From Aquilaria yunnanensis (lineage: Eukaryota; Streptophyta; Magnoliopsida; Malvales; Thymelaeaceae): a stretch of DNA of 64,000 nucleotides. The stretch covers positions 84,272,893 through 84,336,892 of the forward strand of contig CM077594.1 of NCBI GenBank assembly GCA_039654915.1. The letters run 5' to 3'. This document shows, piece by piece, positions 29,793-56,125 of this stretch (positions are counted from its first letter, which is position 1; every line of letters begins with the position of its first letter). The notes below the pieces were generated by a model. The model did not search any database, was not told where the DNA came from, and saw nothing but the letters and a program-made list of their open reading frames with translations. A program made the position numbers and the translations under genes.

Positions 29793-31607
29793 ATTTCCCT
29801 TACCAGCACAATACTCAATCTAATAGTCATAATCTTTTATGTATTCAATCCATCGCCGCTGTCTTATATTCAGATCCTTCTAGGTAAATAAATATTTCAA
29901 ACTCTTGTGATCGGTGAAGATTCTGAATGACCATCCCATCAAATAATGCCTCGACAACTTCAGTGCAAAAATCACTGCTGCCAGCTCAAGATCATGAACA
30001 GGATAGTTCAACTCATTAGGCCTCAGCTGTCTCAAACCATAAGCAATCACCTGACTGTCCTGCATCAACACACATCCCAAACCTGAACCAGATGCATCTG
30101 TATAAACTGTAAAAGCTCTGTCTGGATCTGGTAAGACAAGTATAGGTGCACTAGTCAATTTTTCCTTCAACTTCATGTAAGCTTCTTCACACTTCGGTGT
30201 CCACTCAAACTTCTGAGTCTTCTTAGTCAATGCTGTCAACGGTGTAGATATCACGGAGAATTTCTCTATAAAACGTCTGTAGTAACCTGCCAAACCCAAG
30301 AAACTCCTGACCTCTATAACTATAATTGGTCTCTTCCACTCAACTACTGCTTGACCTTTTTCAGGATCAATTGACAACCCTTGAGCACTGATGATATGTC
30401 CTAAAAACTGAATCCTCTCAGACCAAAACTCACACTTAGACAACTTTGCATAGTACTGATTTTCCTTCAGCACTTGCAAAACTGTTCTAAGGTGCTCCTC
30501 ATGCACTAATGTAGACTGTGAATATACCAGAATATCATCGATGAAGACTTCAACAAACTGATCCAAAAATGGCTTAAAGATCCAATTCATAGCTTCCATA
30601 AATACTGCTGGAGCATTCGTCACACCAAAAGGCATAACTGTATATTCATAATGTCCATACCTCGTCCTGAAAGCAGTCTTCGAAATATCTTCCTCCTTAA
30701 CTCTGATCTGAAAATACCCATACCGAAGATCAATTCTGGAAAACACCTTTGCTCTTTTGAGTCTGTCAAATAGATCATCAATTCTAGGAAGTGGATATTT
30801 ATTCTTAACTGTCACTGCATTCAACTTCCTATAATCAATGCACAACCTGAAAGTTCCATCTTTCTTCTTCACAAATAACACTGGAGCTCCCCACGGTGAT
30901 ACACTAGGCCTTATAAAGCCTTTCCCTAGCAATTCCTCCAACTGCTTCTTTAATTCATCCATCTCAGGAGTTGACATCCTATAAGGTGGTATGGAAATAG
31001 GCTCAACCCCTGGCTGCAGATGGATTGCAAATTCAGTATCCCTCTTAGGTGGTAACCCAGGTAACTCTACTGCAAACACCTCAGGAAACTGATTAGCTAC
31101 AGGAATTCTCCCCAATTCCTCTTCTATAGCCACTCCATTTAATGAATAATACTTTTCTTCACCAACTACAGGGATGGTATCTATAAGTCTAAGGTGCAGA
31201 CTCTTAGCACTAGATGCCAACCTTCTTGTGCAAGTCACCCTAGCTCCTTGAGCATTAGTAATGTCAACTGAGTGATTCACACAGTCAATTTGTGCCTTAT
31301 GCTTACTCAACCAATCCATTCCCAACACTAGGTCATAAGACCTCAGCTCTATCACCCATAACTCACAGCAAAAATCATGATCACCTAACTGCAAGGGATA
31401 CCTAGTAACCACTTCGTTGGTCACAATAAAACCTTTCCCTGCAGTCCTGATGAGTCCCAACTCACCCGAGATTTCTCACTGCAATTTAAACTTATCTACC
31501 AAAGTAGAAGATATCACTGATAGAGTAGCTCCCGTATCGAAAAGCACTCTAACACTACTGTTCTGAAAAGTAAAATTACCTCGAACTGCGGGCGGTTCTC
31601 TGGCCAC
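29793..31607 (-). pseudogene. pol: Tekay protease, reverse transcriptase and RNase H
   Basis: The protease active-site motif (FDTGA) lies near 31530, upstream of a TGA at 31476-31478. From 31460 a 526-codon open stretch holds RT: the [19 protein letters not shown] lead-in, [31 protein letters not shown] and the catalytic FIDDILVYS. RNase H follows ([16 protein letters not shown], then [12 protein letters not shown]). TAG codons at 29880-29882 and 29820-29822 break the RNase H region before the VADALSRK phrase. No frameshift is seen anywhere in the region. Confidence 0.92.
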
Positions 31608-32849
31608 CTAACTCGTCAGTGCAAAAACTCTCGGCTCAACTGCTGCTGCAGCTACACCAGGCCGATTTCCTATAGCAAGAGGTACTGGGGGTAAAGTCTG
31701 AGGCGGACCTGACACCGGTCGAACCCTTGGGCATTCCCTCGCCCAATGTCCTCTCTGACCACAGATATTGCAAGCATCTGTCCCCATAGTGCATGGTCTT
31801 CCACCATGAAACCGTCTGCATCTAGGACACAAACCCGTCTTCCTTCTTTTGGATGGACCTTGGTTCTCCACCATTGGTCGCTTCCCGGCACTCTTTCCCA
31901 AGTTGGCTGGTCCAACCTCCACCTTTTTGCTAGGTACTCTGGAATCCTCAAATTCCTTTTCTAAGGCCAACGCCTTCTGAACTACCTGGCGATAGCTCTT
32001 GATGTCCACTGTCGCCATATACCTCCTGAGTACAGGTTTCAGGCCTTGGAAAAACTTCTTAGCTTTCAGCTCATCATTTAACAACATATACGGAGCATAC
32101 CGGATAAGAGAATTATAACGCTGCTCATACTCCCGCACAGACATCTCTCCCTGTGTCAGATTTTCAAACTGGATCCTCCTCTGATCCTGTGCAGCTTCAC
32201 TGATGTACTCCTGTCTGAACTTCTTCTCGAAGTCCGACCACTTGAGCACCTTTTTCTTGTGCTCTGGGCGAGTACCATTACTTTCCCTCAGTAATTCCAT
32301 TACATCATCCCACCATAAACTAGCTCTCCCTCTCAGAAAGAAAGGTACTAAAATCATCCTTTGCTCTGACTCATAACCACCACAAGTGAAAAGTCTGTTC
32401 ATCCTCGACAACTAATCCTCTGCTCTGTCAGGATCACCTGTCCCATCAAAGCTCGGTGGATCAACAGTCTTAAACTTCTCCAATAATCTCATTTGATGTG
32501 GAGTGTCTCCCCTCCTTGGAGCCTCCATTATCTCTGGTTCCTCTTCTTCCTCATGAACATAATTTCTATATCCATGAGCTCTAGGCACTTGCTGTTGCTC
32601 AGCATGCCTTTCCTACTCCTGTTGTGGGTCAGCCTCCTTCTGGACATCACCTCTGTCCTCATAATCTCTGAACATTTCAGTCACAAGGGTGTTCATACCC
32701 TGTGCCACTTGGGCCATAGTCTCTGTCAACCCCTGTAAAACTCTGGATATCTCATCCAGCCTTGCCACAACTGGGTCACTAGAACCTTCACCAAGCTCCC
32801 TAGTTCCCCTTGAAGCTCCTGACCTAGGGTCAACCATAGCAACCTGCAA
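31608..32849 (-). pseudogene. gag: Tekay gag with CCHC knuckle, three stops
   Basis: Starts near MVDPRSG (ATG at 32837 or 32849). A TAG at 32613-32615 ends the N-terminal part and a second TAG at 32412-32414 lies just before LSRMNRLF. From there a 267-codon open stretch holds the gag domain (FFLRGRASLWWDDV, FRQEYISEAA, YEQRYNSLIRY) and a zinc knuckle CNICGQRGHWARECP; it stops at a TAG at 31608-31610 right after VFALTS. The same frame continues into the protease, as expected for a Tekay single gag-pol frame. Confidence 0.92.
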
Positions 32850-40284: not shown

Positions 40285-40501
40285 TATAAAGGCTCCCCAA
40301 GTACCTCCCCTAGCTCAACTATGGATTTAAGTAAATCCCAAGTTACTTTTTCCTCAAATAATTTTTATTAAGCAAGGAAAGCAAGTTGAGTAAGATTAAG
40401 TTGAGTTCCAAAAAGTAATTGGCACCTAAGGGTCAAAAATGGAAAAATGATAATTTTGGCCCAAGTTAGTGGCGTGAACGTAATTTATATGAAATTAGGT
40501 T
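40285..40501 (+). mobile_element. Plus-strand Tekay LTR, left piece (split by the Ogre-like element)
   Basis: The block before it parallels the Tekay PPT region at 28156-28185 in reverse. The LTR continues after the insertion at 56126 to about 58590, where the outer-end phrase GCCAATTGTAACC and ATGCATATTTTCTATGCAT match the LTR at 25737 in reverse complement. Confidence 0.55.
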
Positions 40502-40998
40502 TGTTGACACCCAATTTCGTCCGACCATAAAAAATTTTAAAAGAAATTAAATAAAAGAAATTAAATAAAAAAAATTATTATTTTTATTATTATTATTATT
40601 ACTAAAAATTTTAATTAGTTTAAAATACATTTTTTTTTTGTGAAGATTTGATTTAAAATGATATATGTGTGTATTTGAAAGAAAAAAAGAAAACTCCAAA
40701 AAAATGGTAAAATTTAAAAGTTTGAGGTAAAAATGACAACATTAAGAAGTTTCGGGAAAAATTGACAAATTCTGAAAGTTCCAGGAGCATTTGGTAGTTT
40801 GTCACATAAAATTTTGGGCCTGCCGACGTTTCTGGCGCAAATTGACAGAAAACGACAAAATTGTCAAAATCAGAAGCTTCAGGAACTTATCCAGAGGCTG
40901 AGAGACGTAAAGGACTAAAATTGTCATTTTACCAATTTAAAAGATAAGTTTGAAATTTTTTATTAATTTATCCATCAACAGTTCAGCCAAACTTCCTC

Positions 40999-41006
40999 TA
41001 TAAATA
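40999..41006 (+). promoter_or_regulatory. TATA box of the Ogre-like LTR
   Basis: TATAAATA in the context CCTCTATAAATAGCCCCCC; transcription would start near 41030. The identical site occurs in the 3' LTR at 54025-54032. Confidence 0.75.
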
Positions 41007-41449
41007 GCCCCCCAAATTTTGTGCTGAACACAGAGAAAAATAGAAAGAAAAGCTTAGAGCTCCGTTTTTAAAATAGAAAAAATTACAGCCTTAGTCCCTA
41101 GCTCTCCTTCCTTTCCTCAGAAAATCTCAACACTTTTCATTTTGACGATTAAGCCATCTTCTTCCCCCCGTCGCGCGCCCTCTGTTTCCATTTCTCAGAA
41201 TTCAGAATTTAAAATCAAGGGTACAACTCTCATTTAATCCTTCATCTTTTCAATTTCTTTCACTTTGGTCACTAACTTTGTATTTTATTCTTGCAGAATT
41301 AATTACTAACCCTTTTAATTTTTACTTGTTTGTTTATTATTTGTTTATTACTAACCCCTTTTTTTATTGTTGTTATTAACTTACTAACAACTAACTTTTA
41401 ATACTATTATTGTCACTAACCTTTTAATTTTTGCATTATTACTAACTTT

Positions 41450-41890
41450 TATAATTGTTGTTAACAATTAATTAACTTTTATTATTGTTGTTAATTAATT
41501 AATTTAATTAACTTGGCTAACTTTTATTATTGTTGTTAATTAATTAATTTAATTAACTTGGCTAGCTTTTTATTATTCTTGTTAATTAATTAATTTAATT
41601 AATTTGGCTAACTTTTTATTTATTGTTGTTAATTAATTTAATTAACTTGGCTAGCTTTTTATTATTGTTGTTAATTAATTAATTTAATTAATTTGGCTAA
41701 CTTTTTATTATTATTGTTAATTAATTAATTTAATTAACTTGGCTAACTTTTTACTGTTGTTAATTAATTAATTTAATTAACTTGGCTAACTTTTTATTAT
41801 TGTTGTTAATTAATTAATTTAATTAACTTGACTAACTTTTTATTATTGTTGTTTAACAATTAATTTAATTAACTTTGCTAACATTTATTA
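41450..41890. repeat. Tandem repeat of TTAATTAATTAATTTAATTAA units in the LTR
   Basis: About eight copies of a ~55-58 bp unit made of a palindromic TTAATTAA block, a CTTGGCTAACTTTTT block and TATTATTGTTG. Mirrored at 54475-54915 in the 3' LTR. Confidence 0.9.
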
Positions 41891-42289
41891 TTATTTTTAA
41901 AGTGGATGGCCAAAAAGCCTCACTTTATTATTATTAATTTTTTTCTTTATATATTTTTTTTATTTAATTCTCCTTTACCCTTTACTAATTAATAAATAAA
42001 TGAAAATTAAAAGAAGATTATTTTGTAATTAATTATTAAGGCTAATAAAAATCATTTTTAAAAAAGCCAATTATTTTTATTTTTATATACATGTTTTTAA
42101 TTCTTTAAAGATAACAAAAAGTTAAAATTAATTTTAATAGTTATTTTTATCCAGTAAAAATAATAAAAAATAAAAATAAAACCTGTTTAAAAAAAATACA
42201 TGAAAATTAAGACTTTATATTTTACTGATTTATTTAAAATATAACTTTTAAATCCACTAAAATAATAAATATTTTTCATTAAACAAGAA

Positions 42290-42490
42290 AACAAAAAGAA
42301 AACTAAAACAAGATAAGAAAAAGATAAGAAAGACAAGAAAAAGAAAAGAAAAGAAAGATAAGAAAAAGATAAGAAAGATAAGAAAAAGAAAAGAAAGAAA
42401 AGAAAGAGAAGAAAGGAAAGATTAAATCAAAAAGAAAAAGAAAAATATAAGAAAGAAAAGAGAGAAAAGAAAAGAAAGAAAATAAAAAAA
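42290..42490 (+). repeat. ~200-nt purine tract in the LTR
   Basis: Nearly all A and G on the plus strand with AAGAAAAG words; mirrored at ~55315-55515. Such tracts can form triplex DNA, but no function is shown. Confidence 0.85.
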
Positions 42491-42609
42491 TAAAAATTTT
42501 TTATCTAAAAGTTCTATAACAAAAAGAATTACGAATTAGTAATTAAACTAATAATTAATTCCATAAAATTAATAATTATATAACTAACAATAAATTAAAT
42601 TTAATTTCC

Positions 42610-42832
42610 ATATCCGGATGATCCGGCAGGATCTACGGTTTGGAAAATATCAAACTTTTTAAAATAAATAAATTAAATAAAAAGATAAAAAATCCATATT
42701 TTTACAATATGGATAAAATTGTTTAAAATTTCACCAAATTCCGTGTCCAAATGACTCGGCAGAGTCCATGGTTCGGAATCAAAATCTTCCGTGTCCAAAT
42801 GACTCGGCAGAGTCCATGGTTCGGAAGTATAA
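42610..42832. repeat. Direct repeats with TTCCG...CGGAA ends in the LTR
   Basis: Two copies of a ~40-bp block starting TTCCGTGTCCAAATGACTCG and ending GGTTCGGAA, plus a diverged third copy at 42608-42645. Each block has short inverted ends (TTCCG/CGGAA). Confidence 0.75.
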
Positions 42833-43098
42833 AATTTTATACAAATTAACTTAAAAATCCACATTTCGACTAATTCAGTTAAAATCTCTAAATTAACTGA
42901 AAATTATTTAAAAGCAAAGTAAAAAAAAAAAATTTAATTAAAAACAACTAAGGTGCCAATTTTGGGCGCTATAACAATATTGTTTTAGCGTAACCGTACT
43001 CCCGATCCCCGAACTCTCGCAGACCAATTTTAAGGTGACCAATCGACCTAGGTAAACGGATTGGTGGCGACTCCCGAAAACCCGACGTTGCCACAGCT

Positions 43099-43116
43099 TG
43101 GCGACTCCACTGGGGA
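43099..43116 (+). promoter_or_regulatory. Primer-binding site of the Ogre-like element
   Basis: TGGCGACTCCACTGGGGA begins three bases after the LTR end. This is the site type known from Ogre elements, where it pairs with a tRNA-Arg 3' end. Confidence 0.8.
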
Positions 43117-43850
43117 GTCGACGTTAGTGAGTCGAGCCTAAAGTTGATTTGTTTTAATTTACTTTGCTTATTATGTGGATTTTTATATGCTATATTTACT
43201 TAGCGAAAACATGCATTATGCATTCACAATATGAAGCTCTATACCCGAGCTTACTTAAATCGAACACGATTCTTTCTAAGCGGAATTGGTGTTGTTGTCC
43301 TTGTGAGGCCATGGTCTCCAAGCCTTCACCGGTTTCAAAGTAGCAAAGTAGTGTATTGCCTTCTGAGACGGTTAGTCTCTGCATGGGCCCACGAAAAGCT
43401 ACGACTCGAATTAATCCATTCCTTACATAAACCCTAGAGGGTAAGGAATCGGGCCGTCACTATAATTTAGTGACGGGATTCGGGAACTATCCCTTGCCTT
43501 TTTGATAAGCCACCTTATGCATATAGAACTCCCCACTTAACCATAGAACTGACCATAGTATTCCTCCCATTTACCAACGCCATAAGCATATCCTTGTTAT
43601 GCTGTGTTGTTGCTCTACACTTTTATTTTCGTATTTATGGTTTTAACTCATTTTTCCATAATAGTTCATGAGTTGTTAATTGCTATTTAAGTTATTAATA
43701 AACTTATCTTTCTTTTGTTATACTTCTGTTTTGTGCAAATATTCTTCATGCATCAAAACCACGCATCAAACTATGCTAACTTTTTGGTCTTTTTAATAAC
43801 AACTAAAAGTCTTGAAGTTCCACGATAGTGGATAATCAAATTCACTCATC

Positions 43851-44093
43851 GCATACATCCATTACATTAATCACGTGCATATAAAGTCTGATAAAAACAT
43901 AATCTCATTGCATACATCCATTACATTAATCAACATTAATCACGTGCATATAAAGTCTGATAAAAACATAATCTCATTGCATACATCCATTACATTAATC
44001 ACGTGCATACAAAGTCTGATAAAAACATAATCTCATTTTTCCTACATGCATCCATTGCATCAATCACATACACATAGGATCTAATAAAATATA
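43851..44093. repeat. ~60-bp tandem repeat in the 5' leader
   Basis: Three good copies and one diverged copy of GCATACATCCATTACATTAA followed by TCACGTGCATA and TAATCTCATT; the second copy has a 10-bp internal expansion. The CACGTG core is repeated in each of the first three. Confidence 0.85.
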
Positions 44094-44159
44094 CCTTACT
44101 TTTAAAAGGATAAAATTGGACCTCGACACCTATATTCAACTCGGCTCCAAATAAGATTA

Positions 44160-45056
44160 ATGGCAGAACAAATCGAAGGACGTCTCATAAAGATAGAGTC
44201 CAAGATAGAAAGTATGGCCGAACAAATGAGACAATTGATCGAGCTAATCAAGGCGAAAGCAATTCAAGAAGCACAAGTTCAGCCACCCATGACAGAAAGA
44301 GAAATGGTCACTTTGTTTGTCCAGACACTGAAGTACCTATATTATGACGAACTCATTGGCAATTCGGCAACTAATTTTTCTAACATTGTCATGTCTGGAG
44401 AAAGAATCGAGCATGAGATTAGGACTGGGAATATTGCTGAATCCTTTAATAATCCTATGAAAAGAGGAGGACCATCCAGAAGAAAAGATGACGAAGTACA
44501 ACAAATAGGACGCGGAAGAAGGATTCCCCTCGTGGACACTGTGGCTATCGGACCTCGCCTATCCTATTTTGCCAATGGGCCCGATAATTACCTTCCAAAT
44601 AGGCCCAATGATTATCCTCTGAATAGGCCCAATAATTATCCTCCAAATAGGCCCAATGATTATCCTTCCAATAGGCCCAACAATTATCCTTTTAACAGAC
44701 CTAATCAGTCATGGCCACCTGCTCCTACTCCTCCAGTACCTGCACCAAGACCAAGAGAAGTTTTCACACCAATTTCCATGACTTATACTGAGTTATACCC
44801 AAAACTCATTGAAAGACAATTTATCCGTCCAATTCCTACAAAGCCATTCAAACCCCCATATCCAAGGTGGTATGACCCTAACATTACCTGCCCATATCAT
44901 GATGGCATTCCAGGCCATGGCTTGGAAAACTGCATGGCATTGAAGCGTATAGTTCAACAATTAATCGAGTCAAAGTGGTTGGACTTTTCCGATGAGCCAA
45001 ATGTCACCCACAATCCATTGCCGCCTCATCAAGCAAAACCAAGTCCAAGTTGCTAG
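44160..45056 (+). CDS. gag: Shortened gag-like protein of the Ogre-like element (298 aa)
   Basis: The N-terminus is a short coiled-coil stretch (IEGRLIKIESKIESMAEQMR). It joins directly to the gag C-terminal part: QPPMTEREMVTLFVQTLKY, a VMSGERIEHEI motif, then an Asn/Pro-rich repeat (seven NRPN-type units between residues 140 and 185), and a CX2HX5HX4C motif (CPYHDGIPGHGLENC, ~residues 244-258) followed by NVTHNPLP, a phrase typical of Ogre/Tat gag ends. The large central capsid domain seen in full-length relatives is missing at the junction near residue 40. The frame is open and ends at TAG; nothing resembling protease follows. It may still bind element RNA, but self-assembly is doubtful. 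Confidence 0.75.
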   Translation: MAEQIEGRLIKIESKIESMAEQMRQLIELIKAKAIQEAQVQPPMTEREMVTLFVQTLKYLYYDELIGNSATNFSNIVMSGERIEHEIRTGNIAESFNNPMKRGGPSRRKDDEVQQIGRGRRIPLVDTVAIGPRLSYFANGPDNYLPNRPNDYPLNRPNNYPPNRPNDYPSNRPNNYPFNRPNQSWPPAPTPPVPAPRPREVFTPISMTYTELYPKLIERQFIRPIPTKPFKPPYPRWYDPNITCPYHDGIPGHGLENCMALKRIVQQLIESKWLDFSDEPNVTHNPLPPHQAKPSPSC

Positions 45057-45875
45057 GCCCGATGTGATTGATAATTGAAAAGTGAAGATTTCGAGCTAGA
45101 ATTACATTAATTTTGGAAGGACTCCAAGTCAGATTTGACCTAACAGTCCGCACACACTTTTGAATGACAGGGAATCCTTTGAATAAACTTGTATCTTTGA
45201 AAGCTTGCAAAAGTAATCTAATAGTAAAAATCTCCTAGATTTAGTCCAGAATCTAGGGTGTAGTCTTTGTTAAATGGACACCTGCTATTCTTTTTCTGGT
45301 ACAACAAAAAGATGTAATGCGTGCATTCTACTACTTTCCATTTTTACACTCTTTGCCATTATATTATCCATTATAGCCATCACACTTTACTTTTTGACAA
45401 CCAGTAATTCTTTTTGTTCTCCAACAAAAAGATGTTATATGTGCATTCTACCACTTTTTAATTCCATTATTACATCTACACATTCTACCAATTTTTACCA
45501 AAAATTCAATTATTACACCTACACATTTTACCACTTCTTACCAAAAATTCCATTTTTACATCCATCTCTCACTCCTTTCCATTATACTATCCATTATTGC
45601 TATCACACTTTACTTTGAAAACGATACTGCTCGTGGGTGAAAATAAAAAGTTAAGGGAGATTTAATAGTGGCGATTTTGAAAGTGCTGTCAAATCTAGTA
45701 AGAATGATTTCATATGTTGCACCCCAACTCTTAAAAAAAACAAAAAAAATTCACAGTGGTTATCAACATCCTTGCAAGAAGTCTGGGGTTAGCTTCCAAA
45801 GAAGGTAGCTCTCATATTAAATGACTTCAGTGGACTCCCAATTCTCACAAATGCTCAATACAAAAAAAAAAAAAA

Positions 45876-46185
45876 GGTTCTCAGTTTTCCGCAACATAAA
45901 TTCCAAAAAAGGAAAGAAGTTCATCCCTTCCATCAAAAGCCATTAAAGGGAAAATCCAAAACAAAAATAGACTGAGAGCAAACACAAGCAAGTAAGGCCA
46001 CTTGAGTCATCTCACTTCAAGAGGGCTATGATCTCGGTTCTCTGCAACACAAACTCCGAAAAGAAAAAAGTTCATCCCTTCCATCAAAAAGCCAACAAGG
46101 GAAAATTCAAAACCAAAAAGAGACTGAGAACAAGCACGAGCAAGCAAGGCCACTTGAGTCATCTCACTTCAAGAGAGTTATCAAG
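45876..46185. repeat. ~158-bp direct repeat
   Basis: GGTTCTCAGTTTTCCGCAAC at 45876 and GGTTCTCTGCAACACAAACT at 46035 begin two copies sharing AGTTCATCCCTTCCATCAA and GCCACTTGAGTCATCTCAC. Confidence 0.8.
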
Positions 46186-46478
46186 TATGTCATCACCATA
46201 GTTCACACAAAAAAAAAAAGAAAGGGAAACAAAAAAAACAAAAAAAAAACAAAAGAAAAGAAAAAGGGCTCAAACTAGAGCAAAAGAAAAAAAGAAAAAG
46301 TGAGCTATGGATTCTAGACTGAAAACCTGCAAAGGTGGTTTAGAACACAAAAGCAACTTTCAAGCCAAGCATACATAAAGACCACGATAGTTAGGGGGCA
46401 ACAGATGAGGTTTAACTTTCTGGGAAGAGTGGCAAGTTTGAGGTCATCACTATTGAGTTTTTCATCATAATCAAATTT

Positions 46479-46860
46479 GCTCACGAGTAATATTAAAAGA
46501 CCCTTCTTTCAAACCACTTAAACTTAACTTTCCTCAGACTTATCATCCTCATTCAGTTAAAAGACTATCATTGTGAATCATACTTCTACCTTATTTAATA
46601 CTGCTCACGAGTAGTATTAAAAGACCCTTCTTTCACACCACTTAAATTTAACTTTCCTCAGACCTAATATCCTCATTCAGTTAAAAGACTATCATTGTGA
46701 ATCATGTTTCTACCTTATTTAATACTGCTCACGAGTAGTATTAAAATACCCTTCTTTCACACCACTCAAACTTAACGTTTCTCGGACCTAACACTTACCT
46801 CTTGATATCATCGTCATTCAGTTAAAAAGCTATTATTATGAATCATGTTTCTACCTTATT
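46479..46860. repeat. 124-bp tandem repeat with GCTCACGAGTA motif
   Basis: GCTCACGAGTA begins copies at 46479, 46603 and 46727, each followed by TATTAAAAGACCCTTCTTTC and ATCATTGTGAATCAT-type phrases. The bases TACTGCTCACGAGTAGTA form an inverted repeat. Confidence 0.88.
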
Positions 46861-47816
46861 GCCTTGCACAGTTTATGTCTTCGAGTTGGAAAGGGAAGAA
46901 TGGCAGGATATTTTAATTAAAAACAAAGACCGTAAATTACTTTATCAAGCTTTGCAAATTGATGAAAGTTTTTCTTTAAGGCCAAACCATTATTCATTAA
47001 TGTATGTAGACTTAAAAGTGAGGAGATAGCTTGAGTCTTTCTTTAATAAGATGTGGTTCTTGTAAGAGAAATTTACGATCAAGTGCCATCACAAAGGTCT
47101 AGAAATGCTCGACCTTCTGTTAAAGGCGAGATGATACCTTTTATCCACATAAATACCATATTCAGGGGGGCAAAGTAGTCTCTACGAAGCGTAAGAGGAG
47201 TACTGCCAACAAAGAAGTTCAATAGACAAGGGGGCAAGTCTTATGGATCAAAACATGAGTTCAAGGAAGAGCAATCATTCAGATTATGACATGAGGATAA
47301 GTAAATGTCGGCACGGTCACAAGAAAATGGGCAAAGTAGACATTGAAAGTAAAGCCTTTGATGGTATCAAATCCATGACAATGGATGAGTACCCGAAAGA
47401 GATAGAAATTATGAGGCGGGCCAACTTTAAAGAAATTGAGGCCAAAATTCAAAGAACAAGTCAAAGAAAGAGGATTTTGAAAAGAGTTGGGCTTTTGAGA
47501 CAGTGAACAAAAGCTGGAAAGCATAAAGAGATTCAATGATAGTCCAAGAAGGCCATCACAAAGAGGATCCAGTAAAGCAAAGACATAAAGAACTAGATCC
47601 ATACAAAAAAAAGCCATTAGTTACACATGCTCTGCATTCATGCATTTCATATCATGCATACATAGCCTTTACATAACAAGGACCAAACGAGAATCACATT
47701 CACAGCACAGTTACAGCAATATAAGCTGAGATCTCAATGTCATCAGCTCTTACCAATCTATCACTGGATACACAGCTAATATGCGGGACCAACCCACATC
47801 AGGAATTCAAGGATAA

Positions 47817-48200
47817 AGTAGACAATATTGTCAAAAGCTTGGCTACCGATTCAATAATCGAGGCTACACCTGGAAGGATAGGATTGACGCCAGCTAGTAG
47901 TATCCAAGATAAGAGATAGCTATAGTCAAGGATAAGGCAGATATAAAAAAAAAATATAAAGTAGACAATATTGTCAAAAGCCTAGCAATTGATTCAATAA
48001 TCGAGGCTACACCTGGAAGGATAGGATTGATGCCAGCTTAGCAGCATCCAAGATAAGAGATAGCTGTGGTCAAAGATAAGGCAGACATCAAGAAATATTG
48101 TCGTTGAAACTTTGTCAAAAGCGGACAATGGATTCAATAATCGAGGACTGGATCAACGTCAGCTCGATAGAATATCCAAGATAAAAAATATCTATCACAT
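47817..48200. repeat. ~135-bp triplicate upstream of the first cargo gene
   Basis: Three copies of a block containing AATATTGTCAAAAGC, GATTCAATAATCGAGGCTAC and ATCCAAGATAAGAGATAGCT; the third copy is more diverged. It ends ~130 bases before the first 182-aa gene. Confidence 0.8.
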
Positions 48201-48331
48201 CAAAATGAAGTAGGATCTACTTTTCCGGTTAAGCGGCGGATACGGTACTCCGTGACTCTTAAGTCGGTTCTCTCAGTTGCCCATAATAACTAATTCTCTC
48301 CTCTCTTCTTTCTTTTACTTCCCTCTAGAAA

Positions 48332-48880
48332 ATGGATCCTACTCTTTCTGTCTTACGAAAATATTTTCCTTCTCTCCCAATGAACATTCTAAAAAAGATC
48401 TACCAAGTTCGCTGTGAACGATTAAGAGTTCTGATGCACAAAGGAATCCCTGAAGATGTGCGGTGGTTAATCGAAGCCAAGGTTCGTCTGGCAGGTGAAA
48501 TCCTAGAGGCATTTGTGTCTCACATGCCTGGTATAGGCAAAAGCTCTTATGCCAAAAAGCGAAGAGCGAAAAGGTTACAAGTCTGCCATAAATGTGGACA
48601 GTGGACTTGTAATACTAAATGTCGTTCTTTAGGGATGATCTCTGATAATCGAGAAGATAAAATACGATTCATTAAGAATGGCCTGAGTAAGGACTCGTTG
48701 GATGATATCCAATTGACTCTTGAGACGCATTCTTGTGGATCAGTGCAACGTGAACTTCTTGGTTTATGGAGTATTTTTCATGAAGAACGAAACCGTTACA
48801 GTCCCGGGAATCTGACTGTAAATGACCCTGTTTGCCAGCTTGTAGGAAAACTGGATGGGAAGCAAATCCTCGACTTATAG
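48332..48880 (+). CDS. Cargo gene 1: 182-aa basic cysteine-rich protein (viral CRP-like)
   Basis: Intact and intronless, from ATGGATCC to TAG. The N-terminus (1-60) is predicted helical (LRKYFPSLPMNILKKIYQ). A basic stretch YAKKRRAKR at 73-81 is followed by CX2CX4CX3C (Cys85, 88, 93, 97), then RFIKNGL (112-118), a HSC motif (133-135) and DPVC (165-168). A helix-rich leader, an Arg/Lys run, a four-Cys cluster and a downstream FIKxG phrase in this order recall the small nucleic-acid-binding, silencing-suppressor proteins of carlavirus-type plant RNA viruses, though the Cys spacing differs and this protein is longer. That kinship is inference and needs profile searches. The leader (CCGTGACT to CTCTAGAAA) is homologous to that of gene 2, but its TATA box is not obvious. 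Confidence 0.8.
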   Translation: MDPTLSVLRKYFPSLPMNILKKIYQVRCERLRVLMHKGIPEDVRWLIEAKVRLAGEILEAFVSHMPGIGKSSYAKKRRAKRLQVCHKCGQWTCNTKCRSLGMISDNREDKIRFIKNGLSKDSLDDIQLTLETHSCGSVQRELLGLWSIFHEERNRYSPGNLTVNDPVCQLVGKLDGKQILDL

Positions 48881-49042
48881 AAGCCGTTAATGCCGTTACT
48901 GGACATAAAACCAGTGGAAGATGTGAGCCACAGTCACAATTACTGTACATACAGTTTGTTATATTTGGAAAAGTTTACATTTTCTTTTGACAGATGTACA
49001 TGCTCCCCTAAGTGTAATCGACACGTTATCCCTTTTTATCAC

Positions 49043-49049
49043 TATAAAT
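49043..49049 (+). promoter_or_regulatory. TATA box of cargo gene 2
   Basis: TATAAAT in the context GTTATCCCTTTTTATCACTA, 121 bases before the ATG. The same surrounding words occur before cargo gene 3 and, in altered form, before the LOG gene. Confidence 0.7.
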
Positions 49050-49169
49050 GTGTGTTCTTCTTTCTGATTAACCAGCGGATAAGATACCCCGTGACTTCTA
49101 AAGTCGGTTATTCCAGTCTCCTACAATAACTGATTCATTTCCCTCTTCTCTCAAATTCTTCTCTCATCA

Positions 49170-49718
49170 ATGGATTCTACTCTTTCTGCACTGCGAAAAT
49201 ACTTTCCTTCCCTTCCAATAAATGTTCTTAAAAAGATTTATCAAGCTAGATGTGAACGATTCAGAGTATTTATGCACAAAGGCATTCCTGATAATGTGCG
49301 GTGGCTAATTGAAGCTAAGGTTCGTTCAGCTGGTGAAGTTCCAGAAGCGTTCTTTCCCCGTATGCCCGGCTTTGGTAAAAACGCTTATGCCAAAAAGCGA
49401 AGAGCAAAGAGGCTAGGTGTCTGTCATAAATGTGGACGATGGAATTGTAATACTAAATGTCGCTTTTTAGGATACATCTCCAGAAATCATGAAGATAAAA
49501 GAAAATTCATCAAGAATGGCCTGCGTAAGGCATCTTTGGATGATATCCTATTAACTTTTGAAACACATTCTTGTGAAATAGTGCAATGGGAAATTATGGA
49601 TTTATGGTGGACTTTCCGTAAAGAACAGGATCGTTACAGTCTTGGAAATCTAACTTTTAATGACCCTGTTTGCCAGTTTGTGAGAAAACTGGATGGGAAG
49701 CAAATCCCCGACTTATAG
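49170..49718 (+). CDS. Cargo gene 2: 182-aa basic cysteine-rich protein (viral CRP-like)
   Basis: Same length and layout as cargo gene 1: N-terminal helical part, YAKKRRAKR, VCHKCGRWNCNTKC cluster, KFIKNGL, THSC and NDPVCQF. From 49215 to 49380 its DNA is identical to cargo gene 3, whereas the region after the cysteine cluster differs at many residues. Against gene 1, a 41-codon stretch (from the PMN/PIN codons) shows about 12 silent and 8 replacement codon differences by hand count, which suggests purifying selection because replacement sites are about three times as numerous. Intact frame, own TATA box, plus-strand like the element. Confidence 0.82.
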   Translation: MDSTLSALRKYFPSLPINVLKKIYQARCERFRVFMHKGIPDNVRWLIEAKVRSAGEVPEAFFPRMPGFGKNAYAKKRRAKRLGVCHKCGRWNCNTKCRFLGYISRNHEDKRKFIKNGLRKASLDDILLTFETHSCEIVQWEIMDLWWTFRKEQDRYSLGNLTFNDPVCQFVRKLDGKQIPDL

Positions 49719-49868
49719 AAGGCATTGAAGCCGTTACTAGACATAAACTAGTGGAAGATGGGAGCCACAGTCATGATTGCTGTACATATAAGCTGTCATT
49801 TGTCTTTTCTTTTGACAATAATGTACTTGCTTCTGTAAGTGTAATTAACACATTATCCCTTTCATCAC

Positions 49869-49876
49869 TATAAATA
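49869..49876 (+). promoter_or_regulatory. TATA box of cargo gene 3
   Basis: TATAAATA preceded by TTATCCCTTTCATCAC; 59 bases before the ATG at 49935. Homologous to the promoter of cargo gene 2. Confidence 0.7.
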
Positions 49877-49934
49877 TGTGTTAGTTATTTTCGTTTCCTA
49901 CAATCACTAATTTCTTTCTTTGCCTCCTTTATCA

Positions 49935-50483
49935 ATGGAGTCTTCTCTTTCCGCCCTACGAAAGTATTTTCCTTCTTTCCCAATAAATGTTCTTAAAAAG
50001 ATTTATCAAGCTAGATGTGAACGATTCAGAGTATTTATGCACAAAGGCATTCCTGATAATGTGCGGTGGCTAATTGAAGCTAAGGTTCGTTCAGCTGGTG
50101 AAGTTCCAGAAGCGTTCTTTCCCCGTATGCCCGGCTTTGGTAAAAGCGCTTATGCCAAAAAAAGAAGAGCAAAGAGGCTAGGCGTTTGTCATAATTGTGG
50201 ATGGTGGATTTGCAGCAATAAATGTCGTTCTCCAGGAGTGATCACCAGAAATCGTAACGATAGAATAAGATTCATTAAGAATGGCTTGCGTAAGGAATCT
50301 CTAGAAGATATTCGAGAGGTTCTTGAAGCGCATTCTTGCGGAATAGTGCAATTTGAGGTTGTTGGATTATGGATAATTTTCCAAAAAGAACGAGATCGTT
50401 ACAGTCTTGGGAATCTGACCCTAAACGACCCTGTTTGCCAGTTTGTGAGAAAGCTAGATGAGATGCAAATCACCGATTCATAG
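49935..50483 (+). CDS. Cargo gene 3: 182-aa basic cysteine-rich protein (viral CRP-like)
   Basis: The ATG at 49935 is chosen over an upstream in-frame TTG because it gives MESSLSALRKYF, matching the starts of genes 1 and 2 and the same 182-aa length. The Cys cluster is VCHNCGWWICSNKC with conserved spacing; the basic run, RFIKNGL, HSC and NDPVCQF are kept. Its C-terminal half is the most diverged of the three, while its N-terminal 55 codons are identical in DNA to gene 2, so the gene looks like a mosaic. Intact and intronless. Confidence 0.82.
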   Translation: MESSLSALRKYFPSFPINVLKKIYQARCERFRVFMHKGIPDNVRWLIEAKVRSAGEVPEAFFPRMPGFGKSAYAKKRRAKRLGVCHNCGWWICSNKCRSPGVITRNRNDRIRFIKNGLRKESLEDIREVLEAHSCGIVQFEVVGLWIIFQKERDRYSLGNLTLNDPVCQFVRKLDEMQITDS

Positions 50484-50498
50484 AAAGCATTGAAGCCA

Positions 50499-50960
50499 TT
50501 ACTGGACGCAAAGCCAGTGGAAGACGAGGATCAAAGTCACAATTACTGTACATGCTAGCTGTCGCTTTTGAAATTTTCCTCCCCTTTTGGTAATAATGTA
50601 TCCACTCCTGACGTGAACCAAAGTCACGATTACTGTACACGCTAGCTGTCGCTTTTGAAATTTTTCTCCCCTTTTGGTAATAATGTATTCACTCCTGACG
50701 TGAACCAAAGTCACGATTACTGTACACGCTAGCTGTCGCTTTTGAAATTATCCTCCCAATAATGTACCCACTCCTGACATGAGATACAGTTATGATTACT
50801 ATATATAGCTGCCACTTTTTAAAATTTTCCTTCTCTTCCAACAATCACGTACCTACTCCTGACGTAAGCTACAATAGTGACTACTGTACATGCTAGCAGC
50901 TATTTTAAAAATTTTCCTCCTCTTTTAACGATAGTGTACCCATACCTGACCAGAGTCATA
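50499..50960 (+). repeat. ~90-107-bp tandem repeat carrying TGACG motifs upstream of LOG
   Basis: About five units of the form GTCACGATTACTGTACACGC...TTTTGAAATTT...CACTCCTGACGTGAACC, derived from the segment that follows each cargo gene. TGACGTGA occurs at 50609 and 50696 and TGACGTAA at 50870; TGACG is the core of as-1-type elements bound by TGA bZIP factors in plant and pararetroviral promoters. Enhancer function is inference. Confidence 0.75.
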
Positions 50961-51036
50961 CTCGTGACTACTGTGAATAGCTGGCAATAATGTATCCATT
51001 CTTGAAAATAAAATTATTGCCTTATCTCTTCATCTC

Positions 51037-51044
51037 TATAAATA
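51037..51044 (+). promoter_or_regulatory. TATA box of the LOG cargo gene
   Basis: TATAAATA preceded by TTATCTCTTCATCTC, closely paralleling the promoters of cargo genes 2 and 3. It is only 40 bases before the ATG at 51077, implying a very short leader. Confidence 0.7.
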
Positions 51045-51076
51045 TATCCTCTTTTCTCACAAGGGTAAGGATAGGA

Positions 51077-51706
51077 ATGGAGAAAACCCCAACTCATAAA
51101 TCCCGAAGTATTTGTGTATTTTCTGGGGCTTTTCCTGGAGAAGATGAAGAGTACTTAAAGGCAGCCAACCATTTGGGTAGTGTATTAGCTGAGCGAAAAA
51201 TACACTTAGTTTATGGAGGAGGTAGTGTCGGATTAATGGGAGCTGTAGCATCAGCAGCATCTTTAGGAGGAAGCCAGGTTCTGGGTATTATCCCTGCATC
51301 TCTGAAATCAGTTTCTGGGGGCACGATTGGAGAAGAGCTAGTGGTTAAAAATCTGCAAGAGCGCTTGTTACAAATGCTTTTTAATGCTGATGCTTTTATC
51401 GCTCTACCAGGTGGCTTTGGCACATTAGGAGAAGTATTCCAAATTGCTTCCATGGCCCAACTTAATTTGCATCAAAAACCCATTGGGCTGTTAAATGTTA
51501 ACTATTTCTTCGCAGGTCTATTATCTTTTATGAATCGTGCTGTGAAGCAGAAGTTTATCCCTGAGGTGACACGACGAATCATAATATCCGTAACAACTGC
51601 TGAAGAATTGCTAGATAAAATGCAAGCTTTTGTTCCTGAACCAGATCCAGCGATGATCCAAATAGACTGGGCACGACAGTCTTTCCCAACCAGTTCCATC
51701 CCATAA
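51077..51706 (+). CDS. Cargo gene 4: LOG-type cytokinin riboside 5'-monophosphate phosphoribohydrolase (209 aa)
   Basis: LOG enzymes release active cytokinin bases from nucleotide precursors in one step in the cytosol. The protein shows SICVFSGAFPG (11-21), LVYGGGSVGLMGAVA (45-58), GIIP (70-73), an Arg at 96, and PGGFGTLGE (111-119), which fits the LOG signature PGGxGTxxE. Arg96 and Glu119 are spaced exactly like the catalytic pair of plant LOGs (98/121 numbering), followed by QKPIGLLNVNYFFAGLLSF. The usual Lys after the Arg is Leu here. Length is normal for the family. Plant LOG genes have several introns; this copy has none, pointing to capture from mRNA. The ATG at 51077 is preferred over the in-frame upstream codon at 50990 because it follows the TATA box and aligns with LOG N-termini. 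The frame is intact in a very young element. Confidence 0.92.
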   Translation: MEKTPTHKSRSICVFSGAFPGEDEEYLKAANHLGSVLAERKIHLVYGGGSVGLMGAVASAASLGGSQVLGIIPASLKSVSGGTIGEELVVKNLQERLLQMLFNADAFIALPGGFGTLGEVFQIASMAQLNLHQKPIGLLNVNYFFAGLLSFMNRAVKQKFIPEVTRRIIISVTTAEELLDKMQAFVPEPDPAMIQIDWARQSFPTSSIP

Positions 51707-52223
51707 TTGTCCTTTTACCCGGCCTGTTGAAGCATTGTGGAAGAATAAGCGATCTGATCCGTTTTTCTTGTCCTTTCGTTTTAATTATCAGCATTTTCTT
51801 TCGTATTTCAGTTTTTCCTTTCAGGGAATTTCTTTTTTTTATAATATAGTTTCGTCCATGCTGATATTAAAACCATAGGACAATGCCTTTAGGTTGGAAT
51901 GGCTGAGTAAAGAGTAATTTTTGTTACTCTTGAGACGCATCCTATTAGGTCTACTAGGCATAACATTTTGGGATAGTTAAGCTTTAACCTTATTCGGATG
52001 ACATATCTCACAAGGGAATCTATATTTACTAAAGAAAATATTAGATGAACCTTGAATATTGATTCCAAACATCCGTTCCCTTTACATAGTTTGTCAGTAT
52101 TATTGTCATCATCAAGATTCACTCGTTTTATCGAAGCCTAATTCTTTGCGCTCGCCTATTATGAAAATTCACACTTTCGAAGAAAATTATTCCAACTTCA
52201 ATTGCTTTCATATAAATTTCGCT
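51707..52223. other. 3' flank of the LOG gene, no gene seen
   Basis: T-rich sequence with no coding frame of note; AATAAG at ~51746 might act as a weak polyadenylation signal. Confidence 0.4.
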
Positions 52224-53422
52224 CGAGGTCCTAAGGAAAGCTCCTTAGCCTCAAAATCAATTTTCATCATCAGGGTTTTAAGGATGGAACCTTTGCCTCG
52301 AAAAGAATCAATTTTCATCATCGGGGTTTTAAGGATGGAACCTTTGCCTCGAAAACATTCAATTTTCATCATCGGGGTTTTAAGAATGGAACCTTTGCCT
52401 CGAAAATAATCAATTTTCATCATCGAGGTTTTAAGGATGGAACCTTTACCTCGAAAACAATCAATTATCAATCCGAGGTTTTAAGGATGGAACCTTTGCC
52501 TCGAGATCAATCAATCAATTCGAGGTTTTAAGGATGGAACCTTTACCTCGACATCAATCAATCAATCCGAGGTTTTAAGGATGGAACCTTTGTCTCGAGA
52601 TCAATCAATCAATTCGAGGTTTTAAGGATGGAACCTTTACCTCGACATCAATCAATCAATCCGAGGTTTTAAGGATGGAACCTTTGCCTCGAAATCAATC
52701 AATCAATCCGAGGTTTTAAGGATGGAACCTTTGCCTCGAGATCAATCAATCAATTCGAGGTTTTAAGGATGGAACCTTTACCTCGACATCAATCAATCAA
52801 TCCGAGGTTTTAAGGATGGAACCTTTGCCTCGAAATCAATCAATCAATCCGAGGTTTTAAGGATGGAACCTTTGCCTCGAGATCAATCAATCAATTCGAG
52901 GTTTTAAGGATGGAACCTTTACCTCGACATCAATCAATCAATCCGAGGCTTTAAGGATGGAACCTTTGCCTCGAAATCAATCAATCAATCCGAGGTTTTA
53001 AGGATGGAACCTTTGCCTCGAGATCAATCAATCAATTCGAGGTTTTAAGGATGGAACCTTTACCTCGACATCAATCAATCAATCCGAGGTTTTAAGGATG
53101 GAACCTTTGTCTCGACATCAATCAATCAATTCGAGGCTTTAAGGATGGAACCTTTACCTCGACATCAATCAATCAATCTGAGGTTTTAAGGATGGAACCT
53201 TTGCCTCGAAATCAATCAATCAATTCAAGGTTTTAAGGATGGAACCTTTGCCTCGAAATCAATCAATCAATTCGAGGTTTTAAGGATAGAACCTTTGCTT
53301 CGAAATCAATCAATCAATCCGAGGTTTTAAGGATGGAACCTTTGCCTCAGAAACAATCAATTTTCCTTCAACGATAGGAGAGCTCCTATCGCCGGGGTTC
53401 TAAGGAGAGTTCCTTAACCTCA
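52224..53422 (+). repeat. 47-bp minisatellite (~24 units), each a potential stem-loop
   Basis: Unit: CGAGGTTTTAAGGATGGAAC, CTTTGCCTCG, then a CAATCAATCAAT-type spacer. GAGG pairs with CCTC and AAGG with CCTT. Units are organised in threes (141 bp) by the alternation GCCTCGAG/ACCTCGAC/GCCTCGAA. The array is bordered by stronger hairpins of the same design at 52224-52253 and 53395-53422. Open frames across it are by-products of the 47-bp period. Confidence 0.9.
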
Positions 53423-53513
53423 GGATTTAGGCGGCGAAAAGGTTTTCAATGCCTAGCTAAGCCGGACGAAATTTGGTAACGACTTTGCATACATCATGTC
53501 TCATGAAGCATGC

Positions 53514-53526
53514 AAAGGGGGGCAGC
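53514..53526 (+). promoter_or_regulatory. Polypurine tract of the Ogre-like element
   Basis: AAAGGGGGGCAGC directly before the 3' LTR, the typical Tat/Ogre form. Confidence 0.88.
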
Positions 53527-56120
53527 TGTTGACACCCAATTTCGTCCGACCATAAAAAATTTTAAAAGAAATTAAATAAAAGAAATTAAATAAAAAAAAT
53601 TATTATTTTTATTATTATTATTATTACTAAAAATTTTAATTAGTTTAAAATACATTTTTTTTTTTGTGAAGATTTGATTTAAAATGATATATGTGTGTAT
53701 TTGAAAGAAAAAAAGAAAACTCCAAAAAAATGGTAAAATTTAAAAGTTTGAGGTAAAAATGACAACATTAAGAAGTTTCGGGAAAAATTGACAAATTCTG
53801 AAAGTTCCAGGAGCATTTGGTAGTTTGTCACATAAAATTTTGGGCCTGCCGACGTTTCTGGCGCAAATTGACAGAAAACGACAAAATTGTCAAAATCAGA
53901 AGCTTCAGGAACTTATCCAGAGGCTGAGAGACGTAAAGGACTAAAATTGTCATTTTACCAATTTAAAAGATAAGTTTGAAATTTTTTATTAATTTATCCA
54001 TCAACAGTTCAGCCAAACTTCCTCTATAAATAGCCCCCCAAATTTTGTGCTGAACACATAGAAAAATAGAAAGAAAAGCTTAGAGCTCCGTTTTTAAAAT
54101 AGAAAAAATTACAGCCTTAGTCCCTAGCTCTCCTTCCTTTCCTCAGAAAATCTCAAAACTTTTCATTTTGACGATTAAGCCATCTTCTTCCCCCCGTCGC
54201 GCGCCCTCTGTTTCCATTTCTCAGAATTCAGAATTTAAAATCAAGGGTACAACTCTCATTTAATCCTTCATCTTTTCAATTTCTTTCACTTTGGTCACTA
54301 ACTTTGTATTTTATTCTTGCAGAATTAATTACTAACCCTTTTAATTTTTACTTGTTTGTTTATTATTTGTTTATTACTAACCCCTTTTTTTATTGTTGTT
54401 ATTAACTTACTAACAACTAACTTTTAATACTATTATTGTCACTAACCTTTTAATTTTTGCATTATTACTAACTTTTATAATTGTTGTTAACAATTAATTA
54501 ACTTTTATTATTGTTGTTAATTAATTAATTTAATTAACTTGGCTAACTTTTATTATTGTTGTTAATTAATTAATTTAATTAACTTGGCTAGCTTTTTATT
54601 ATTCTTGTTAATTAATTAATTTAATTAATTTGGCTAACTTTTTATTTATTGTTGTTAATTAATTTAATTAACTTGGCTAGCTTTTTATTATTGTTGTTAA
54701 TTAATTAATTTAATTAATTTGGCTAACTTTTTATTATTATTGTTAATTAATTAATTTAATTAACTTGGCTAACTTTTTACTGTTGTTAATTAATTAATTT
54801 AATTAACTTGGCTAACTTTTTATTATTGTTGTTAATTAATTAATTTAATTAACTTGACTAACTTTTTATTATTGTTGTTTAACAATTAATTTAATTAACT
54901 TTGCTAACATTTATTATTATTTTTAAAGTGGATGGCCAAAAAGCCTCACTTTATTATTATTAATTTTTTTCTTTATATATTTTTTTTATTTAATTCTCCT
55001 TTACCCTTTACTAATTAATAAATAAATGAAAATTAAAAGAAGATTATTTTGTAATTAATTATTAAGGCTAATAAAAATCATTTTTAAAAAAGCCAATTAT
55101 TTTTATTTTTATATACATGTTTTTAATTCTTTAAAGATAACAAAAAGTTAAAATTAATTTTAATAGTTATTTTTATCCAGTAAAAATAATAAAAAATAAA
55201 AATAAAACCTGTTTAAAAAAAATACATGAAAATTAAGACTTTATATTTTACTGATTTATTTAAAATATAACTTTTAAATCCACTAAAATAATAAATATTT
55301 TTCATTAAACAAGAAAACAAAAAGAAAACTAAAACAAGATAAGAAAAAGATAAGAAAGACAAGAAAAAGAAAAGAAAAGAAAGATAAGAAAAAGATAAGA
55401 AAGATAAGAAAAAGAAAAGAAAGAAAAGAAAGAGAAGAAAGGAAAGATTAAATCAAAAAGAAAAAGAAAAATATAAGAAAGAAAAGAGAGAAAAGAAAAG
55501 AAAGAAAATAAAAAAATAAAAATTTTTTATCTAAAAATTCTATAACAAAAAGAATTACGAATTAGTAATTAAACTAATAATTAATTCCATAAAATTAATA
55601 ATTATATAACTAACAATAAATTAAATTTAATTTCCATATCCGGATGATCCGGCAGGATCTACGGTTTGGAAAATATCAAACTTTTTAAAATAAATAAATT
55701 AAATAAAAAGATAAAAAATCCATATTTTTACAATATGGATAAAATTGTTTAAAATTTCACCAAATTCCGTGTCCAAATGACTCGGCAGAGTCCATGGTTC
55801 GGAATCAAAATCTTCCGTGTCCAAATGACTCGGCAGAGTCCATGGTTCGGAAGTATAAAATTTTATACAAATTAACTTAAAAATCCACATTTCGACTAAT
55901 TCAGTTAAAATCTCTAAATTAACTGAAAATTATTTAAAAGCAAAGTAAAAAAAAAAATTTAATTAAAAACAACTAAGGTGCCAATTTTGGGCGCTATAAC
56001 AATATTGTTTTAGCGTAACCGTACTCCCGATCCCCGAACTCTCGCAGACCAATTTTAAGGTGACCAATCGACCTAGGTAAACGGATTGGTGGCGACTCCC
56101 GAAAACCCGACGTTGCCACA
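53527..56120 (+). repeat. 3' LTR of the Ogre-like element (2594 bp)
   Basis: Nearly identical to 40502-43095, including TATA box, TTAATTAA repeats and purine tract; followed by the AGGTT duplication. Confidence 0.95.
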
Positions 56121-56125
56121 AGGTT

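Follow-up and report, generated by a model that had tools for sequence, protein, structure and literature searches.

A 64,000-nucleotide window of the Aquilaria yunnanensis genome (Thymelaeaceae; assembly GCA_039654915.1, contig CM077594.1, positions 84,272,893 to 84,336,892 of the forward strand; positions below are those of the window) contains at 40502-56120 a long terminal repeat (LTR) retrotransposon that carries, in place of pol, three paralogous genes of the carlavirus nucleic-acid-binding protein family (NABP1 to NABP3) and one LOG-type gene. The element belongs to a family with many copies and is not a singular case. We interpret it, with moderate confidence in the reading as a whole, as a member of a recently active, non-autonomous Ty3/gypsy-type LTR family in which a constant cassette of three NABP genes and LOG has replaced pol, with the origin and the functions proposed below.

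The element was recognized by its paired LTRs, a 5-bp duplication, a stretch resembling a primer-binding site (PBS), a polypurine tract (PPT) and a short gag. The two LTRs of 2594 bp have the termini TGTTGACA...TTGCCACA (TG...CA ends) and differ by three substitutions and two one-base indels. The exact duplication AGGTT is present on both sides, GCTTGGCGACTCCACTGGGGA lies directly behind the 5' LTR as the putative PBS, judged by its position and conservation, and AAAGGGGGGCAGC lies directly ahead of the 3' LTR. The initial annotation had described these structures as those of a young, pol-less LTR element, and our analysis agrees. Indeed, tblastn searches of the interior (E ≤ 0.01) with the pol of two other retroelements of the window, presumably Tat-like and chromovirus-like (see below), and with one plant integrase gave no pol match, and when the same queries were run against 10-kb slices of ten other copies, neither reverse transcriptase nor RNase H nor integrase was matched. 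We therefore conclude that the element is non-autonomous. In the slice of one copy, residues 1-88 of the Tat-like frame, a part that precedes reverse transcriptase, were weakly matched (E 0.007). The open reading frames (ORFs) of the gag-like protein, the three NABPs and LOG are all on the plus strand and all uninterrupted in the window, and no other ORF of at least 150 aa was found in the element. The gag-like ORF had no Pfam match; the gag of some other copies was weakly similar to that of the Tat-like element (tblastn, best 29% over 121 aa, 1e-12), and a protein search with gag returned one near-identical protein and one partial Mucuna gag. With these weak gag matches, and with NABP flanks shared with two integrase-bearing loci (see below), a placement on the Tat/Athila side of Ty3/gypsy is tentative. 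A 2039-bp NCBI contig encodes the near-identical match and could be a transcript of this retrotransposon family. The 114-aa ORF behind gag, which had a full-length tblastn match in three of the ten other copies and a partial one in the remaining seven, may be an additional cargo or accessory gene.

The other copies were obtained from the 842-Mb assembly, in which the window lies on scaffold C2 and at least eight scaffolds measure 86-120 Mb. Bases 1-799 of the LTR served as query, and 40 of the 2562 candidate matches were scored. Every pair among these 40 with a spacing of 12.4-14.5 kb, apart from that of the window, was taken, which gave the ten elements; they were picked blind to their content, and the sample is biased toward copies close to the window element. 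The slices comprised the 10 kb adjoining the 3' LTR and thus lacked as much as roughly 2 kb on the gag side. The initial annotation had proposed that the four genes moved together, and had named as evidence to the contrary an LTR family whose other copies all lack them. All ten copies carried NABP1-NABP2-NABP3-LOG in the same order on one strand, which leaves the proposal standing; one of them has two NABP2 units, each of them damaged. The 5-bp duplications were exact in nine copies, and those of the tenth agree at four of five positions. The PBS-like stretch of the window follows the 5' LTR in all ten, with two variable positions, and the PPT is identical in nine and differs by one base in the tenth. 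The LTR-LTR distances of the ten copies were 0-0.0163, corresponding to 0-0.63 million years at a substitution rate of 1.3e-8 per site and year. When loci were fetched with NABP1 (n = 30, including the window), a second NABP followed in 29 and a third in 27, and the NABP tandem was also present in a locus with 84.6% identity to the window element, where the sequence read ends within NABP3. First-look candidates in the host genome, most of them unscored, numbered 2562 for the LTR, 8226 for NABP and 3659 for LOG; among the best 150 scored for each gene, 148 (NABP) and 133 (LOG) were stop-free. Because the other sampled copies carry the same gene set, we conclude that the NABP/LOG cassette has moved repeatedly as a package and did not come about by accident.

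The three cysteine-rich paralogues of the initial annotation could be assigned to a family of viral silencing suppressors: all of them exceed the curated Pfam cut-offs of Viral_NABP and Carla_C4, the carlavirus nucleic-acid-binding family, with a narrow pass of at least one of the two for NABP2 and NABP3. The proteins have a basic RRAKR stretch followed by C-X2-C-X4-C-X3-C, and all four cysteines are kept in 22 of 23 full-length NABP rows. In an alignment of 94 plant NABPs, including those of the window, 82 match Viral_NABP and 81 match Carla_C4 (E ≤ 0.001). According to excerpts of two papers, carlavirus cysteine-rich proteins (CRPs) suppress silencing, and the CRP of chrysanthemum virus B is a transcription factor linked with hyperplasia (PMC12172455, PMC3689765). 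A search of solved structures with NABP1 gave a single match (E 0.7), and two structure predictions for this protein were weak (mean predicted local distance difference test scores of 59.0 and 66.8). IMG/VR scans with NABP1 and with a NABP alignment returned no relative, and PF05515 matched none of 14 control genomes, whose identities are not given, so that this result has little bearing on other plants. The best PF05515 matches in the host genome, e.g. C2:93479254 and C3:42187245, are open-frame NABPs of 189-194 aa that score up to 40.8 bits, compared with 31.9 bits for the window, and may belong to other subfamilies; C4:16298971, also among the best matches, is an old copy of the window element's family.

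The fourth gene had been annotated as an open, intronless gene for a LOG-type cytokinin-activating enzyme, and the predicted protein is indeed of the LOG type: it matches PF03641 (Lysine_decarbox; 6.6e-33) and TIGR00730, and its best solved relative is At2g37210 (1.5e-50). The motif arginine and PGGFGTLGE are present; we take the arginine and the PGGxGTxxE residues to be the LOG active site. The arginine is kept in 116 and the glutamate in 118 of the 120 plant LOG relatives listed, and the motif is intact in five of the eight other full-length copies. At 102 of the 300 bits required, the protein falls far short of the NCBIfam LOG equivalog, which is weak evidence since the model was built for bacterial and archaeal annotation. 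An IMG/VR scan with one plant LOG returned no relative. As a TATA box lies between the two candidate ATGs, the 209-aa form is favoured.

To assess selection, pN/pS (the ratio of nonsynonymous to synonymous polymorphism) was calculated from the full-length frames of the eleven elements, window included. The values were 0.24 for NABP1 (6 rows), 0.39 for NABP2 (10 rows), 0.32 for NABP3 (7 rows) and 0.26 for LOG (9 rows), alongside 0.42 for gag (7 rows) and 0.27 for the 114-aa ORF (4 rows). The controls gave 0.42-1.0 for two spacers in three frames and 0.50-4.28 for the wrong frames of the genes, and the synonymous divergence (dS) between NABP2 variants was up to 0.42. Judged from these sequence comparisons, the data point to purifying selection on the cargo genes. 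As to transcription, TATAAAT occurs four times on the plus strand of the 10431-bp interior, three times at 127, 66 and 40 bp ahead of NABP2, NABP3 and LOG, respectively. The search for these boxes covered 10 rows for NABP1, 10 for NABP2, 8 for NABP3 and 9 for LOG out of the eleven elements; the boxes of NABP2 and NABP3 are not independent, the two genes being paralogues. The proposal that the cargo has its own promoters thus finds support, from sequence only, for three of the four genes.

Relatives of the cassette genes provide indications of its origin. The 3330-bp plant contig DAIEQH010000041.1 encodes an integrase with a NABP ORF 192 bp behind it; it is filed under a Nomurabacteria metagenome-assembled genome, and this bacterial record thus appears to be contaminated with plant DNA. 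The host genome was searched with this integrase (91 scored of 26992 candidates), and the 1 kb behind three loci was examined. A NABP was found behind the integrase in two of them (ranks first and third), with 80% and 66% identity to NABP1; the remaining locus, from a group with a 1809-aa open frame, had no NABP in the 1 kb behind it. The similarity of the NABP-bearing loci to the window extends beyond NABP on both sides, and in one integrase locus 46 bp further on match sequence that follows LOG in the window. The position of NABP behind an integrase in host loci and in the plant contig suggests that an element with pol and NABP was probably the ancestor from which the cassette developed. In the tree of the 94 plant NABPs, those of the window group with two further proteins (100/97), indicating that the triplication is young within the NABP family. 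NABP relatives numbered 264 at E ≤ 0.01, and the named ones among the 120 listed come from Populus, Xanthoceras and Orobanche; among the 120 LOG relatives listed, out of 7712, are some from Reevesia, Diplodiscus, Populus, Paulownia, Parasponia and Xanthoceras. Between the two lists of 120 rows each, three contigs were equal in size (2128, 4511 and 8723) with a common source for each pair, compared with about 0.15 expected; the comparison covered contigs from 2 kb to below 1 Mb and excluded whole chromosomes and shorter shared sizes (e.g. 905, 1006, 1018, 1386). This is no more than suggestive of a NABP-LOG linkage in other plants.

On the favoured interpretation, a pol-NABP ancestor would have lost pol, undergone triplication of NABP and gained LOG. 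The full-length RNA would be packaged and reverse-transcribed by the enzymes of another element, and internal promoters would drive transcription of the cargo genes. By analogy with carlavirus CRPs, NABP could be a basic zinc-finger protein that binds nucleic acids and thereby weakens silencing or alters host transcription, and LOG could release active cytokinin in the same cells, leading to division and carrying new copies into the germ line. Since copies with a broken gene have still moved, the cargo products may be partly trans-acting. Counter-silencing combined with cytokinin release is the most economical function we can propose, and a plausible one. A further-reaching version, which we put forward only tentatively, is that of an old angiosperm retrotransposon class present in rosids and asterids, in which a virus-type silencing-suppressor or transcription-factor gene and a cytokinin-activating enzyme would alter host cells; such a growth-manipulating retrotransposon may have given rise to the carlavirus NABP or received its own from there.

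Several observations weigh against the interpretation as a constant and functional cassette. The four intact genes of the initial annotation are found in the window, but only one of the ten other copies has all four at full length, and in nine at least one is short or broken (full length: NABP1 in five, NABP2 in nine, NABP3 in six, LOG in eight), so a copy can do without a full set of its own. The stops in NABP1 fall in five different codons in five copies, three of which have LTRs with four or fewer substitutions; the lesions thus probably predate or accompany the most recent insertion, and a broken gene does not keep a copy from moving, whether through help in trans or through redundancy. 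NABP1 lacks a TATA box in seven of ten copies, the window among them. Three of the eight other full-length LOG copies are altered at the motif arginine, at the glutamate or within PGGxGT. The window NABPs do not have the carlavirus finger spacing C-X2-C-X9-C-X4-C. Both NABP-bearing host loci are stop-ridden in the integrase. Finally, the pairs pooled for pN/pS are not independent, the spacer controls of 0.42-1.0 instead of 1 mean that the ratio is biased low, and the NABP2 value of 0.39, hardly under the lowest spacer value, is the least secure.

Alternatively, NABP could be an accessory replication protein, i.e. a substitute nucleocapsid or RNA chaperone or a packaging or export factor, and LOG a general enzyme for nucleotide monophosphates or a hitchhiker, with no hormone manipulation. 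We consider this unlikely. The basic stretch and the four cysteines would suit nucleic-acid binding, the window gag is short, and LOG, with its altered motif residue in three of eight other copies, falls in the broad TIGR00730 family and under the equivalog cut-off; yet in other copies a longer gag accompanies the same three NABPs, the pN/pS of LOG is low, and plant LOG proteins are the solved structures that it matches best. Plant LTR elements are known to capture genes, and the cargo could consist of captured host genes that were amplified without effect on the success of the element and look intact owing to their youth, as the short LTR distances and the nine copies with a short or broken gene would allow. 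This is clearly improbable, considering the low pN/pS at a dS of up to 0.42 among NABP2 variants, the NABP tandem in the copy only 84.6% identical to the window, the related NABP and LOG proteins across several plant orders, and the NABP behind integrase in two further contexts. The recent integration of a carlavirus genome or its 3' end into the element, suggested by the viral Pfam matches of all three proteins, is very improbable, and we regard it as refuted: the element has no further ORF of at least 150 aa, the named NABP relatives among those listed are all from plant genomes, at least 150 NABP copies were scored in the host genome, and the cysteine spacing differs. An assembly artefact or a chance gene neighbourhood between two LTRs, with nothing in its favour, has a negligible probability and was rejected, since ten more copies have the same content at different sites, nine with their own exact 5-bp duplication; this also rules out the misassembly that the initial annotation had considered.

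The element is known in kind, as a non-autonomous LTR retrotransposon with extra genes; its cargo make-up, the constancy of this cargo across copies and the signs of selection are new. The papers compared here were available as excerpts, and statements about them apply to these. Plant Ty3/gypsy elements have been described that carry additional ORFs in sense orientation, located behind gag-pol and ahead of the 3' LTR (PMC7264820); the window element shares sense ORFs ahead of the 3' LTR with them, and differs in lacking pol and in having four cargo genes in fixed order, three of them Viral_NABP. Gypsy consensus sequences from Citrus and Populus were reported to contain the YgdH (LOG) domain (PMC9289625, section 12, citing Steinbauerova 2011) and thus, like our element, carry a LOG domain. 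That screen was seeded from the reverse transcriptase domain, so that pol-less elements were outside its reach, and NABP is unnamed there. Retand has antisense ORFs and tandem repeats ahead of the 3' LTR, and some copies are non-autonomous (PMC11963269). The long stretch before the 3' LTR, the tandem repeats and copies without coding domains are shared with it, whereas the extra ORFs of Retand are antisense and mostly TRP28, and those of our element are all sense and encode NABP and LOG. A basic stretch followed by a four-cysteine motif and profile scores above cut-off connect the window NABPs with carlavirus CRP/NABP. In contrast, they are 182 aa long, their cysteine spacing is 2-4-3 instead of the 2-9-4 of potato virus H, and they sit in an LTR element, not as the 3' gene of a carlavirus genome, with no viral replicase or coat gene beside them. 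With plant LOG phosphoribohydrolases the predicted window protein shares the whole domain, the motif arginine and PGGxGTxxE; it differs in that an uninterrupted frame within an LTR element encodes it and that first-look candidates in a single genome run into the thousands. An excerpt on a betaflexivirus replicase in cucumber makes no mention of NABP, nucleic acid binding or cysteine-rich proteins (PMC3136472), and a term search for NABP, carlavirus and LOG in the available text of PMC7264820, PMC6317226 and PMC11963269 was negative. No published report of NABP genes in retrotransposons was found in a literature search, with subscription journals mostly outside its scope. The cargo set had been thought undescribed: within the scope of this search, this stands for the NABP genes but not for extra ORFs and the LOG domain in Gypsy elements, already published (PMC9289625).

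If the cargo works, the family would combine genes for a virus-like counter-defence with genes for a growth hormone, and would lend itself to studying whether transposons gain access to the germ line by manipulating the development of their host. The family is also a cellular reservoir of a gene family named after RNA viruses. For annotation, many of the listed LOG relatives in Reevesia, Diplodiscus, Populus and Paulownia may have been taken for hormone genes of the host although they are carried by transposons; this warning is based on the named proteins scattered over chromosomes among the 120 LOG relatives listed, not on their surroundings.

Table 1 Features of the LTR retrotransposon at 40502-56120 and the evidence for each
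Feature	Position	Strand	Evidence
5-bp target duplication AGGTT, left copy	40497..40501	.	flanks element
5' LTR, 2594 bp	40502..43095	+	LTR-LTR comparison
Putative primer-binding site (PBS-like stretch, GCTTGGCGACTCCACTGGGGA)	43096..43116	+	position; conservation in other copies
gag-like ORF, 298 aa, shortened	44160..45056	+	open frame; up to 405 aa in other copies
114-aa ORF with hydrophobic stretch	45274..45618	+	recurs in other copies
NABP1, 182 aa	48332..48880	+	Viral_NABP 31.9 bits (cut-off 23), Carla_C4 26.6 (cut-off 20.9)
TATA box ahead of NABP2	49043..49050	+	kept in 10/10 copies examined
NABP2, 182 aa	49170..49718	+	Viral_NABP 23.9 bits, Carla_C4 22.7; both barely above cut-off
TATA box ahead of NABP3	49869..49876	+	kept in 8/8 copies examined
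NABP3, 182 aa	49935..50483	+	Viral_NABP 27.6 bits, Carla_C4 21.4
87-bp tandem repeat, NABP3-LOG interval	50532..50757	+	repeat analysis
TATA box ahead of LOG, between both candidate ATGs	51037..51044	+	kept in 9/9 copies examined
LOG-type gene, 209 aa from inner ATG (ORF 50990-51706, 238 aa)	51077..51706	+	PF03641 6.6e-33
47-bp tandem array, 22.8 copies	52274..53361	+	repeat analysis
Polypurine tract AAAGGGGGGCAGC	53514..53526	+	position; conservation in other copies
3' LTR, 2594 bp	53527..56120	+	LTR-LTR comparison
5-bp target duplication AGGTT, right copy	56121..56125	.	flanks element

Rfam gave no match in the window. The 87-bp repeats (window 50523-50947) are by eye similar to stretches around the NABP genes and possibly represent a doubled promoter or 3' region. 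Two other retroelements lie on the minus strand of the window, one at 8877-13798 with gag and pol frames, which we take to be Tat-like and for which pol domains were found, and one at 28104-32411, presumably chromovirus-like.

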